From: Colwellia sp. PAMC 20917
Lineage (GTDB): Bacteria; Pseudomonadota; Gammaproteobacteria; Enterobacterales; Alteromonadaceae
NCBI RefSeq assembly: GCF_001767295.1
Contig: NZ_CP014944.1
Coordinates: 744,001 to 808,000 of the forward strand
DNA length: 64,000 nucleotides
Direction: 5' to 3'
Both the position numbers and the translations under genes were made by a program. Positions 3,268-8,366 of this stretch are shown here, piece by piece (the stretch's first letter is position 1; each line of letters opens with the position of its first letter). Under the pieces are notes generated by a model. The model worked only from the letters and a program-made list of their open reading frames with translations, was not told where the DNA came from and did no database searches.

Positions 3268-3600
3268 GGCTGAACATTTGTTGTTCCTTGCCATCGTCGT
3301 GCAGCGAAGCACTAATGTTTTGAAATACAGGATGTCTGAGAAAGGTCATCCTGAACATTCATCGTTCCTTGCCATCGTTTCTATACCTGCCACCACGACA
3401 TACCCTTCGTCCTGAACATTCGTCGCTCCTTGCCATCCATTCCATAATTGCAACCACGACATATCCTTCGTCCTGAACATTCGTCGTTCCTTGCCATACT
3501 TTACATAATTGGCATCACGACATACCTTTCATCCTGAACATTCGTCACTCCTTGCCATACTTTACATAATTGGCATCACGACATACCGTTCATCCTGAAC
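3268..3600 (+). repeat. 61-bp structured tandem repeat array (array 1)
   Basis: Four consecutive units have an exact 61-bp period (the CTGAAC core at 3351, 3412, 3473, 3534 and 3595), with a degenerate extra unit starting near 3270. Each unit carries the core TTCATCCTGAACAT (or TTCGTCCTGAACAT), then CGTCGTTCCTTGCCAT, a more variable stretch of about 20 bp, then CACGACATACC. Within a unit GTCGT pairs with ACGAC, and in units 3 and 4 TGCCA pairs with TGGCA. Related 51-bp units occur at 8199 and 42599, all in the same orientation. The array fills the gap between convergent sdaA and cysB and stops directly at their terminator. It has no coding role that I can see. Confidence 0.9.
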
Positions 3601-3602
3601 AT

Positions 3603-3632
3603 AAAAAAGCGACTGATATCAGTCGCTTTTTT
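3603..3632. terminator. Bidirectional terminator between sdaA and cysB
   Basis: A perfect 18-bp palindrome (GCGACTGAT/ATCAGTCGC) is flanked by six A on the left and six T on the right, so it can terminate transcription from either side. It separates two convergent genes and directly abuts repeat array 1. Confidence 0.9.
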
Positions 3633-3660
3633 GTGGTTATTGATTTATATCTCAGTTGCT

Positions 3661-4635
3661 TTAACGAACAGGCAATTTAATATTCGCAAACATCTCATCT
3701 ATTTCAGCATTGTTTTTCAATAAAACGGCTTTAGTGACTAAATCACGATTTAAATGAGGGGCAAAACGCTCAATAAAATCAAACATGTAACCACGTAAGA
3801 AAGTACCGCGTCTAAAACCAATTTTAGTAGTACTTGAATTAAATAAATGACTGGCATCGATAGTCACTAAATCACTATCTATTCTAGGGTCGATAGCCAT
3901 AGTAGCAATCACACCAACGCCAACACCTAAACGCACATATGTTTTAATTACATCAGCATCGGTGGCAGTAAAGGCAATTTTAGGCTCTACTCCAACACTA
4001 TTAAAAGCCGTATCAAGCTCTGAACGTCCAGTAAAACCAAACACATAAGTCACTAATGAATACTTGGCTAAGTCTTCAATAGTAATGCCTTGTTTTTTAG
4101 CTAAGGGATGATCGGGTCGCACTATTATACTGCGATTCCAGTGATAGCAAGGTAACATCACTAAATCGTTATATAAGTGTAATGATTCCGTCGCAATAGC
4201 AAAATCAGCGTCACCTTTGCCTGCGGCATCACTTATTTGCGCTGGCGTTCCCTGAGACATTTGTAAAGAAACTTTTGAATACTTTTTCATAAAGCCTTTG
4301 ATCACTTCAGGCAATGCATATCGCGCTTGAGTATGCGTGGTTGATATACGTAATTTACCTTCATCGGGTTGAGTATGCTCACGCGCAACCGCTTTAATCG
4401 CTTCAACTTTAGAAAGAATTTCGGTGGCAATATTAATAACTTCATTGCCAGGGGCAGTAACATGCGTTAAATGTTTGCCACTGCGGCCGAATATTTGAAT
4501 ACCGAGTTCATCTTCTAGCATGCGAACTTGCTTGCTTATACCCGGTTGAGAGGTGAATAAACTTTCTGCTGTTGCAGAGACATTTAAATTATTGTTGAGT
4601 ACTTCAACAATATAGCGCAGTTGTTGCAGTTTCAT
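3661..4635 (-). CDS. cysB: LysR-type regulator CysB, cysteine biosynthesis activator
   Basis: CysB activates sulfate-assimilation and cysteine-biosynthesis genes in response to N-acetylserine. The 324-residue length equals that of typical CysB. The N-terminal winged helix-turn-helix (about residues 1-60, [12 protein letters not shown]..., [13 protein letters not shown]) has the CysB/Cbl-specific pattern, followed by [15 protein letters not shown] and the periplasmic-binding-like effector domain containing [12 protein letters not shown] and [19 protein letters not shown]. Cbl is the alternative paralogue, but the close fit along the whole protein favours CysB. Regulon genes are not in this window. 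It is convergent with sdaA and divergent from the 4962 gene, with a 326-bp gap between them. Confidence 0.92.
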
Positions 4636-4961
4636 AATTATTCTTCAAAATTTTTGATGCTGATTGCTTATGCAAAAAATATATACTTAAATGGAGACTT
4701 ATTCCATATTAATTTTCATTATTCTGCTTATATGCGCGATTTAATTTAATAATGTAGGATAATTACTACAAAACCCACATAACCAAGTTGAAAACGGCTT
4801 TTTCAGGATGAAATGTGGTTTTTTATTCAAAATAAAAAATTATATAAATAGCCTTGATTAGTATCAGAGATAAAAGGTTAATATAAGGCTATGCTAATGT
4901 GTCCATTTTTTGTAGACTGGATAAAAGGTATTTCTATTTTAACAGACGAGTAGTTAACATT
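4636..4961. other. cysB upstream gap with a nested hairpin followed by T6
   Basis: This intergenic stretch separates divergent cysB and the 4962 gene. Inside it, at about 4770-4826, an outer stem (ACCCACAT with ATGTGGT, one bulged base) encloses an inner stem (TGAAAA with TTTTCA) and is followed on the plus strand by TTTTTT. That is the form of an intrinsic terminator or the 3' end of a small RNA. No promoter or operator was confidently recognised. Confidence 0.35.
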
Positions 4962-6187: not shown

Positions 6188-6265
6188 AAGCACTTACCTG
6201 CTGTATTCCTTGATGTTATACGAGTATTATAAGCTTAATTAGCATTTCTTACTTTACGGATAATC

Positions 6266-6799
6266 ATGGCACTAAAAGCAACAATAAATAAAGCCAGTAT
6301 ACAACTGTCAGATATGGACAGAAATTACTACGACACCCTCAATTTAACCATCGCCCAACATCCTTCAGAAACAGATATTCGTATGATGGTGCGCTTGTTA
6401 GCTTTTATTTTAAATGCAAATGAACATTTGCAATTTGGTAAGGGTGTGAGTGACGAAGAAGAAGCGGCTCTTTGGCAAATTAATTACTCTGAAGTAATAG
6501 AGTTATGGATAGAGCTTGGGCAACTGGATGAAAAACGTCTCAAAAAAGCCTGTAATCGTGCCCAAAAAGTGATTCTTTATGCCTATGGCAGCAGTGCTGA
6601 AACTTGGTGGAAACAGTCACAAAACAAATTACGTCTACTCAATAAACTTTCCATTGAGCTCATTAGCCAAGAAACTTGTGATGCATTAGCAAAACTTGCT
6701 GGACGCTCTATGGACTTTCAGTGCAGCATCCAAGATGGCCAATTATGGTTAACGGCGGGTGATGAAACACTGTTAATTGAAACAACAAAATTACAATAA
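6266..6799 (+). CDS. yaeQ: YaeQ family protein
   Basis: A 177-residue member of the YaeQ family, which adopts a PD-(D/E)XK nuclease-like fold and whose biological role is unsettled. Seen: the start MALKATINKASIQLSDMDRNYY, the DIRMMVRLLAFILNA segment, GVSDEEEAALW, and WIELGQLDEKRLKKACNRAQKVILYAYG, all in the usual order and at the usual total length. The catalytic-like acidic residues around E (DEEEAALW) are kept. It is followed by the M28 peptidase gene within about 30 bp, so the two may be co-transcribed. No functional link between them is evident. Confidence 0.88.
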   Translation: MALKATINKASIQLSDMDRNYYDTLNLTIAQHPSETDIRMMVRLLAFILNANEHLQFGKGVSDEEEAALWQINYSEVIELWIELGQLDEKRLKKACNRAQKVILYAYGSSAETWWKQSQNKLRLLNKLSIELISQETCDALAKLAGRSMDFQCSIQDGQLWLTAGDETLLIETTKLQ

Positions 6800-6831
6800 T
6801 TAATACCAACATGGATAGGGAAATAATAAGC

Positions 6832-8190
6832 ATGAAAAGTCACCTTAGTAAAAGCCGCTTAACTTTAGCTCTTTTTGCTGGCATTACACTCCTTTCTGCA
6901 TGCAGTGAGCCTGAACCACCTAAAGCCAAAATTGCTGAAATGTCATCGGAACAAGTTATTAAAGATATTACTTATCTCGCAAGTGACGATTTAAAAGGCC
7001 GAGCCAGCTTCTCTGTTGGTATTGACCAAGCGGGTGATTATATTAGCCAAAGGTTTACCCAAATTGGACTAAGCCCACTCGAAGGCAATAAAGATTTCAA
7101 ACAAACATTTAATGTAACCAGCATTATGCCAACAGCATTAACGGTGACCTTAAATGGTCAGACTATTGCTGACGCTAATTTAGGTATGGCAAGTACTATG
7201 GCAACGCTTTCATGGCAGAGCCTTGAAAATGTTACCACCCATATTATTGCTGAAGCGGATGATATGCGCGCGGCTCTTAGTAAAATGAATAATGACGGTG
7301 GCCAACACCTGGTTATTATCCATAGTGCTCACGCTAAAACTTTTGCTGGTTATCGAGGTTACTTTCAACGAGGCTTAACGAAGCTTAACCTTGATCACCA
7401 AGGGGCTATTGTTATGGTTTTAGCCGATGATAATGAAGTTAGCACGGTAAACGTTAACGCGAGTACTTCGATAACTGAAAAAACCTTAACCAATATTGTT
7501 GCGATACTTCCGGGCAAAGATAAAGATCCAGCGACAGCAAAAGAAGTGGTTTTATATTCATCACACTATGATCATTTAGGTGTAACGGCTGATGGTAAAG
7601 AGGTTTTTAATGGTGCTGATGACGATGCATCGGGCACCTCTGCTGTTATTAATCTGGCACAACACTATGCCCATCAAGGTAAGAACGCAAGAACCTTAAT
7701 GTTTAGTGCTTTTACCGCCGAAGAAATTGGTGGCTTTGGCTCTAAATATTTTTCACAGCAATTAGATCCTAACAACGTTGTGGCAATGATAAACATTGAG
7801 ATGATAGGTAAACCTTCAAAGTTTGGCGCTGGTTCGGTTTGGATGACAGGAATGGAGCGTTCAAATTTAGGTGAATTACTTAACGTAAGCTTAGCGGCTA
7901 AAAACAGTGAAATTTACCAAGACCCTTACCCAGAGCAGGGGTTATTTTATCGTTCAGACAATGCAACACTTGCGCGTTTAGGTGTTCCAGCTCACAGTTT
8001 TAGTAGTACTCAACTCGATAAAGACCAGCATTATCATAAAACGTCTGATGATATTAGCAGCCTAGACTTAGTGTCGATGTATCAGGTTATTGAGTCGTTA
8101 TCAGTCGCTACGCAAGGACTAGTTGATGGCAGTATTACCCCAACACGTATTGATGTAAATACTGTTCGAGCGAATGGTAAAATCTACTAA
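6832..8190 (+). CDS. M28-family metallopeptidase lipoprotein
   Basis: A zinc aminopeptidase of family M28 anchored as a lipoprotein. From the ATG at 6832 (452 aa) the N-terminus is basic then hydrophobic and ends in the lipobox LLSAC, with the lipidated cysteine at residue 24; the in-frame ATG seven codons upstream would spoil the short signal peptide. The di-zinc site is visible: HYDHLG (H about 245), NGADDDASG (D about 263-265), TAEEIGGFG, NIEMIG and a C-terminal HYHKTSDD. The segment between about residues 85 and 230 resembles a protease-associated insert. It probably trims peptides in the periplasm or at the outer membrane. Repeat array 2 begins 9 bp after its stop codon. Confidence 0.88.
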   Translation: MKSHLSKSRLTLALFAGITLLSACSEPEPPKAKIAEMSSEQVIKDITYLASDDLKGRASFSVGIDQAGDYISQRFTQIGLSPLEGNKDFKQTFNVTSIMPTALTVTLNGQTIADANLGMASTMATLSWQSLENVTTHIIAEADDMRAALSKMNNDGGQHLVIIHSAHAKTFAGYRGYFQRGLTKLNLDHQGAIVMVLADDNEVSTVNVNASTSITEKTLTNIVAILPGKDKDPATAKEVVLYSSHYDHLGVTADGKEVFNGADDDASGTSAVINLAQHYAHQGKNARTLMFSAFTAEEIGGFGSKYFSQQLDPNNVVAMINIEMIGKPSKFGAGSVWMTGMERSNLGELLNVSLAAKNSEIYQDPYPEQGLFYRSDNATLARLGVPAHSFSSTQLDKDQHYHKTSDDISSLDLVSMYQVIESLSVATQGLVDGSITPTRIDVNTVRANGKIY

Positions 8191-8198
8191 GTTTGACC

Positions 8199-8366
8199 GT
8201 TCATCCTGAATATCTTGACTCTTTGCCATCCATGGCATCGTGACATACCGTTCATCCTGAACATCGTCACTCCTTGCCATCCATGGCATCGTGACATACC
8301 GTTCATCCTGAACATCGTCACTCCTTGCCATCCATGGCATCGTGACATACCGTTCATCCTGAACAT
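8199..8366 (+). repeat. 51-bp structured tandem repeat array (array 2)
   Basis: Three units of exactly 51 bp plus a partial fourth start at 8199, 8250, 8301 and 8352. Units 2 and 3 are nearly identical; unit 1 is degenerate. Each holds the small inverted repeat GTTCATCCTGAAC, an outer stem GTCAC/GTGAC and an inner stem TGCCAT/ATGGCA. Because 51 is divisible by three and the unit lacks stops in several frames, it produces spurious repetitive open frames on both strands. It lies between the convergent M28 peptidase and GNAT genes and, like array 1, ends in GTTCATCCTGAACATAA next to a terminator. Confidence 0.92.

Follow-up and report, generated by a model that had tools for sequence, protein, structure and literature searches.

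In Colwellia sp. PAMC 20917, a hairpin repeat linked to transcription terminators was identified within a window of 64,000 nucleotides (assembly GCF_001767295.1, contig NZ_CP014944.1, positions 744,001 to 808,000) of a 4.68 Mb genome assembled as a single contig. The repeat forms three tandem arrays, situated in window coordinates at 3357-3602, 8211-8366 and 42592-42680, which an initial annotation of this DNA had correctly recognised as one array of 61-bp units (array 1) and two arrays of 51-bp units (arrays 2 and 3). Selection on its fold is strongly supported, its loop sequences are under selection too, and folding is best supported for the strand opposite to that of the first reading; this strand, the minus strand for the window arrays, is termed the e-strand here. 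The units are predicted to carry CsrB-like hairpin pairs, and we consider it plausible, though at somewhat less than even chances, that they are transcribed by read-through and act as dispersed decoys of CsrA.

A unit on the e-strand reads ATGTTC-AGGAT-GAACGGTAT-[GTCAC GA TGCC-ATGGAT-GGCA AGGA GTGAC]-G, and units of 51-54 nt are predicted to be able to form two hairpins, a short one (stem-C-A(N)GGAN-G-stem) and a two-tiered one (stem-C-ANGGAU-G-stem). The initial annotation had described paired changes in the outer and inner stems of the latter as well as a 10-bp length change in its inner loop. Both were borne out. Array 1 is the least regular of the three: ATCGT, GTCGC, GTCGT and GTCAC stand against ACGAC, so that the outer stem pairs perfectly in one unit only. 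The core, TTCATCCTGAACAT, is found 11 times in the window at up to two mismatches (0.59 expected), one occurrence (4799, minus strand) being located outside any array, and constitutes a third, likewise covarying hairpin in its own right (GTTC-AGGAN-GAAC on the e-strand). Among 197 accepted units from 124 loci, given in the orientation of the initial annotation, the outer stem takes the forms GTCAC/GTGAC, GTCGT/ACGAC, GTCGC/GCGAC, GTCAT/ATGAC and more, the inner stem the forms TGCCA/TGGCA, TCACA/TGTGA and TGGCA/TGCCA, and the core stem the forms GTTC/GAAC, GTAC/GTAC and ATTC/GAAT. Orthologous copies of array 3 exhibit TGGCA/TGCCA in the source genome (G000) versus TGGTA/TACCA in the sister genome G001.

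The genome-wide collection of copies with a covariance model and the test for covariation, as initially proposed, were carried out and revealed significant stem covariation. One model (R1) was built from 17 units and a second (R2) from a cross-family alignment. In the 17-unit alignment, the measures of paired cells, double-change cells and covariation exceeded all 500 shuffles; the number of pairs changed on both sides was matched by 63 and that of further pair types by 220 of them. In the cross-family alignment of 45 rows, 97.1% of stem cells are paired and 11 of 13 pairs show double changes, neither of which was reached in any of 500 shuffles, and 130 double-change cells compare with 33.7 in shuffles; some rows with an extra loop base (e.g., L365, L377 and L368) are misaligned and were counted unchanged. 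Controls in which the alignment was slid had 53.4% of paired cells at most. Further pair types were not enriched in the 45 rows (24 versus 22.1 in shuffles, 102 of 500 shuffles being equal or higher). On the minus strand, the 51-nt unit is by eye open in one frame, but a coding function was rejected, as this frame is lost in units of 50, 52, 58 and 61 nt.

The suggestion that a hairpin rather than primary sequence is selected holds for the stems and is wrong for the loops, as both hairpin loops are almost invariant A(N)GGA sequences. At 113 loci (one unit per locus, 54-nt units only, the duplicate loci L235 and L239 left out), the core loop consists of C (113), A (113), G (110), G (113), A (110), a variable position (T 84, A 15, C 12, G 2) and G (109), and the inner loop of C (112), A (112), a variable position (T 101, C 7, A 3, G 2), G (112), G (112), A (111), a second variable position (T 109, C 2, A 2) and G (112). 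Stems thus drift with compensation while the loops stay almost fixed. The repeat of CsrB has the consensus CAGGA(U/A/C)G and RsmE ligands present an ANGGAN hexaloop (available portion of PMC7652899), and the variable loop positions of the Colwellia units are largely those of these two sequences. Repeated GGA motifs in hairpin loops of the form CAGGA(U/A/C)G or ANGGAN, as expected of a CsrA decoy, are present. Of 69 matches across the class, 64 have A(N)GGA in the core loop and 68 in the inner loop, counts that are biased by the presence of the loops in the search model itself, and the e-strand cells of these matches comprise 16 wobble pairs versus 7 A-C. Hairpins consisting of a stem of at least 3 pairs and C-A(N)GGAN-G occur 12 times in the window, including ten e-strand cases within the arrays, compared with 0-2 in each of ten loop-permuted controls; the regions of relatives contain 21 (G003, controls at most 9), 6 (G001, at most 4) and 3 (G005, at most 2).

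A search with the Rfam CsrB model at E ≤ 10 returned seven matches in the genome, the top two of which are array 2 and locus L011, both on the e-strand (25.3 and 24 bits). The gathering score of 71 was not reached in the genome, and these sub-threshold matches are only a pointer because 8 of 14 control genomes also match at E ≤ 10. The third match (23.1 bits) is a stand-alone csrB-like small RNA (sRNA) gene (G000:C1:3742144-3742416; locus L348, ~1250-1780), which contains 32 A(N)GGA motifs in 780 nt, internal tandem repeats, C-AGGAN-G hairpins as in the arrays and, as recognised by eye, a terminator of its own. One CsrA match was found in the source genome.

The folding strand should tolerate G-U pairs and not A-C mismatches. 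Wobble cases, counted once per locus and pair, number 40 for the e-strand versus 12 for the other strand (binomial p = 1.3e-4; 31 versus 9 in the first locus set), with the outer stem supplying most of the asymmetry (30 versus 5). This count leaves out the core pair nearest the loop, which varies on one side only, the 4 units (out of 201) in which fewer than 9 pairs are Watson-Crick and the duplicate loci L235 and L239; orthologous loci are partly non-independent in it, and strand-biased mutation pressure may contribute. Predicted RNA folding energy is lower on the e-strand at 94 and higher at 17 of 113 loci, a difference to which purine-rich internal loops may contribute. Being palindromic, intergenic and tandem, the repeats could also serve as duplex DNA to which a nucleoid or replication protein binds, comparable to BIMEs; the wobble asymmetry and the single fixed orientation behind terminators speak against such a site, which is regarded as very improbable.

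Analysis of the genomic context revealed a placement rule: arrays lie immediately behind the terminator of a gene on the folding strand. The start of the array is located 0-2 nt from the T-tract of an intrinsic terminator in 90 of 112 arrays, compared with 58 of 4480 random positions at the same loci, under a fixed rule that required 5 or more uninterrupted stem pairs (G-U allowed) and a T-run whose end lies 0-2 nt from the junction. These arrays stem from marine Colwellia bacteria and relatives and are not a random sample of copies, since their loci were picked mostly as best-scoring R1 matches. At one such junction, ...GCGACTGATATCAGTCGCTTTTTT is directly followed on the e-strand by ATGTTCAGGATGAACGGTATGTC.... 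Many of the 22 arrays failing the rule appear by eye to have weaker terminators; window array 3, L161, L163, L334 and L342 differ.

In 91 of 106 arrays, an e-strand gene of at least 100 codons has its stop codon no more than 250 nt before the junction (median 59 nt, interquartile range 52-67). On the strand first read, 69 of 106 arrays have a gene that ends no more than 500 nt from the far side; arrays near contig ends were left out of both counts. The position beyond the 3' end of a plus-strand gene, which the initial annotation had taken as a constant feature, is therefore best regarded as a by-product of convergent genes, and it is the terminator of the far-side gene, on the minus strand, that constantly accompanies the arrays. 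The check on orientation relative to genes that it had called for did reveal a non-random placement, with a fixed orientation directly behind terminators. Wobble and folding energy both favour the opposite strand, and the original assignment of strand and gene was wrong. A folded RNA in the 3' untranslated region of a plus-strand gene would agree with the 69 arrays that have such a gene end nearby and leaves the remaining 37 without one; as fold and wobble also favour the other strand, this explanation is highly improbable.

Like the decoy RNAs CsrB, CsrC and RsmX-Y-Z, the arrays are composed of repeated short hairpins with an A(N)GGA loop, a C-G closing pair and nearly the same variable positions. 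They differ from these RNAs in that Colwellia units are dispersed over dozens of loci behind the terminators of other genes, and in that the repeat is a regular 51-nt two-hairpin unit with an Rfam score far under the family cut-off. By analogy, this anatomy, i.e., tandem CsrA-type hairpins on the read-through strand, may function in the manner of a CsrB decoy; the units are not assigned to the CsrB family, since the Rfam threshold was not reached and the binding of CsrA is proposed by likeness to known ligands. In this model, RNA polymerase would read through the terminator and transcribe the unit, and its two loops would, as in CsrB-type RNAs, be bound by a CsrA/RsmE dimer. Taken together, dozens of loci would then amount to a dispersed, expression-coupled CsrA decoy beside the ordinary csrB-like sRNA, and array renewal would proceed from the terminator end. 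A decoy system without a dedicated gene, in which leaky termination at many genes frees CsrA and the units spread by recognition of terminator hairpins or of terminated transcript ends, appears rather unlikely.

Several observations weigh against the CsrA-decoy model. In the regions of G001 and G005, GGA-loop hairpins are only weakly in excess, and with a flanking stem of at least 4 pairs only 1 such hairpin is left in the window versus 0-1 in controls; therefore, the excess resides in short stems. In array 1, the motif of the inner loop is absent from the two units nearest the terminator, and a tandem array is predicted to be able to fold as a longer rod that hides the local hairpins. When the loop-side core pair is added, with its 14 opposite cases, the wobble count becomes 40 versus 26, and all rows with this pair hold 24 GT versus 36 AC cells. 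The presence of CsrA does not separate carriers of the repeat (44 of 49) from non-carriers (190 of 225; p = 0.50), nor does it do so among near-complete genomes (40 of 41 versus 171 of 195; p = 0.09), in a tally made by hand over 274 genomes that counts carriers G181, G272, G295 and G313, which are absent from the listed positives, and the listed negative G157 as CsrA-less; the carrier G181, which is 95% complete, has no CsrA match. Finally, many single units in distant lineages have no adjoining T-tract. By eye, 14 of 24 listed distant loci have a T-tract within 0-2 nt, and 1 of 18 R2 loci (L381) lies clearly beside one, at least one row (L380) being an internal unit. Consequently, terminator adjacency is the rule in the fetched arrays of Colwellia and its near kin and is not universal.

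The main rival, to be taken seriously even if it is the less probable choice, is a selfish, non-autonomous single-strand hairpin with REP- or IS200-IS605-like behaviour that inserts behind terminator hairpins, its fixed loops and covarying stems being maintained by an unknown enzyme that reads one strand. Precise junctions at many different terminators, the fixed orientation and the strand-biased folding would be in agreement with such an element, as would single units in varied contexts in distant lineages and the patchy distribution of R2 matches at E ≤ 1e-5 (69 of 369 genomes of the class and 31 of 398 genomes of the phylum, the latter including 16 from one family outside the class; E-values are rough). 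Abundant extragenic palindromes with compensatory stem changes are shared with the REP/BIME and RAYT system, from which the Colwellia repeat differs by its fixed orientation, head-to-tail tandem arrangement and lack of a link to a Y1 transposase (compared with the available parts of PMC3733652 and PMC2817692). The GTAG/GTGG head of REPs, as given in the available part of PMC2817692, is absent from the foot of the Colwellia hairpin in a per-position base table. No Y1_Tnp match (E ≤ 1e-5) was obtained in G004, G005, G018, G012 and G010, which nevertheless hold 76, 43, 88, 12 and 9 copies, respectively. The 30 fetched Y1 loci contained no linked Y1 (PF01797) transposase flanked by repeats; a real-looking core was found near one of them (L209) and a chance-looking match near another (L211). 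With copies in Y1-free genomes and almost none near Y1 loci, a Y1 transposase link was rejected.

The occupancy of the sites also argues against a mobile element. The three window sites are occupied in G000 as well as in the sister genomes G003 and G001, with which the window can be aligned, with gaps, over ~62.9 kb and ~52.2 kb, and R1 (E ≤ 0.01) detected no further site in 80 kb of G003 or 80 kb of G001. The array 3 site of G003 is occupied by a long form and the array 2 site of G001 by a degenerate copy that R1 did not report. In G005, the sites of arrays 1 and 2 are unoccupied and the alignment ends short of the array 3 site; an empty site reads ...TTTTTT directly followed by ATTGTTTAAAA on the e-strand. 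In addition, stems are largely common to the units of one array and differ between loci, suggesting that growth is local. Decoy function and mobility may both apply together.

Two further systems share features with the repeat. Group IIC introns insert behind terminators in a fixed orientation, as the arrays are placed, and differ from the 51-nt Colwellia unit; with regard to intron RNA domains, no Rfam family reached its gathering score in the 13 sources scanned and only noise was obtained at E ≤ 1 in 5, in a search that did not include reverse transcriptases. In integron attC sites, structure is conserved rather than stem sequence, as in the present stems, which belong to tandem units without gene cassettes between them.

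In the arrays examined, most units are spaced 51 nt (107 intervals) or 52 nt (30 intervals) apart. Spacings of 51, 52 and ~101 nt suggest slippage, and together with arrays that are homogeneous internally and divergent between loci they would fit neutrally evolving tandem repeats in which template-switch repair and gene conversion preserve the palindromes. Such repeats are disfavoured and deemed improbable, as they fail to explain near-invariant loops beside freely changing stems, the terminator junctions, the strand-biased wobble and the same grammar in other families. In 50 arrays with at least 3 cores, the hairpin nearest the terminator exceeds that of the last complete unit in stability (mean -10.9 versus -8.9 kcal/mol, p = 7e-4), and its core has fewer mismatches (0.06 versus 0.68); the walk along the arrays accepted cores with up to 4 mismatches, so that some distal "units" may be other modules. 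With the most stable and intact units at the proximal position, arrays look renewed or constrained at the terminator end.

The family proved wider than the three arrays first described: R1 yields 52 matches in the source genome at E ≤ 1 and 41 to 80 matches in each of six same-genus genomes, source included, at E ≤ 1e-3. R1-positive genomes amount to 21 of 59 searched, source included, and at E ≤ 1e-6 to 21 of 274 class genomes. Judged by sequence, CsrB-like two-hairpin units appear to be shared by many families of the Gammaproteobacteria and by one family beyond that class. No Rfam 15 family reached its gathering score among loci from 13 sources, and five matches at E ≤ 1, all below threshold and in five long-form loci, were noise-like. 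A description of the repeat was not found in the searched literature, which excluded most subscription journals and all bioRxiv preprints; in the available part of PMC13263038, a string matching it is a polymerase chain reaction primer. Should CsrA bind the hairpins, read-through at dozens of loci would titrate a central regulator, a layout likewise not found in the literature searched. If they are mobile, the repeats would represent a small class of terminator-targeting elements that have a loop code and no known enzyme. In both cases, this is a covarying, multi-family structured element that Rfam 15 leaves unreported in the scanned loci.

Within the window, array 1 comprises four 61-bp units (3357-3419, 3418-3480, 3479-3541 and 3540-3602, minus strand), and degenerate remains extend back to ~3268. 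In minus-strand reading, it starts right after the T-tract of the intrinsic terminator AAAAAAGCGACTGATATCAGTCGCTTTTTT (3603-3632, minus strand), which is preceded by the gene of a LysR-family regulator (3661-4635, minus strand). The three 51-bp units of array 2 (8211-8366, minus strand) each carry a C-AGGAN-G core hairpin and a C-AUGGAU-G inner hairpin, and the array lies past the 3' end of a GNAT acetyltransferase gene (8398-8847, minus strand). Its junction is occupied by a terminator-type stem-loop (8367-8394) with a T-rich tail in the plus direction and TT only in the minus direction. Array 3 (42592-42680, minus strand) consists of one complete and one partial 51-bp unit; it lacks a terminator in the window, as well as the greater part of the minus-strand gene next to it, while the orthologous site has a stem-loop in G001 and the gene in G003. 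Comparison of 42680-42700 with both relatives indicates that this minus-strand gene, chemotaxis receptor-like in G003 as judged by eye, is now a remnant.

The putative inner CsrA-type hairpin, TGCCATGGATGGCA, is located on the minus strand at 8326-8339, with others of its type at 8224-8237, 8275-8288, 42605-42618 and 42656-42669, and the putative core CsrA-type hairpin, GTTCAGGATGAAC, on the same strand at 8352-8364, with others of its type at 3588-3600, 8250-8262, 8301-8313 and 42631-42643. The long form (L223, L230, L232, L012 and L014) contains an extra internal module, and in some copies CsrA-type hairpins were seen by eye in this module on the opposite strand. A second intergenic repeat family, CCGTCATCCTGAACTTGTTTCAGGATC with GATACTGAAATAAATTCAGCATGACG, forms long mixed arrays at L046 (~1370-2140, counted on the reverse complement) and L051 (~1759-2540). 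The window also contains a 32-bp tandem repeat in 3 copies (11215-11310), situated between open reading frames (ORFs) of at least 100 amino acids, and a 156-bp tandem repeat in 2 copies with a 90% match (53032-53350) within the minus-strand ORF 52382-54601.

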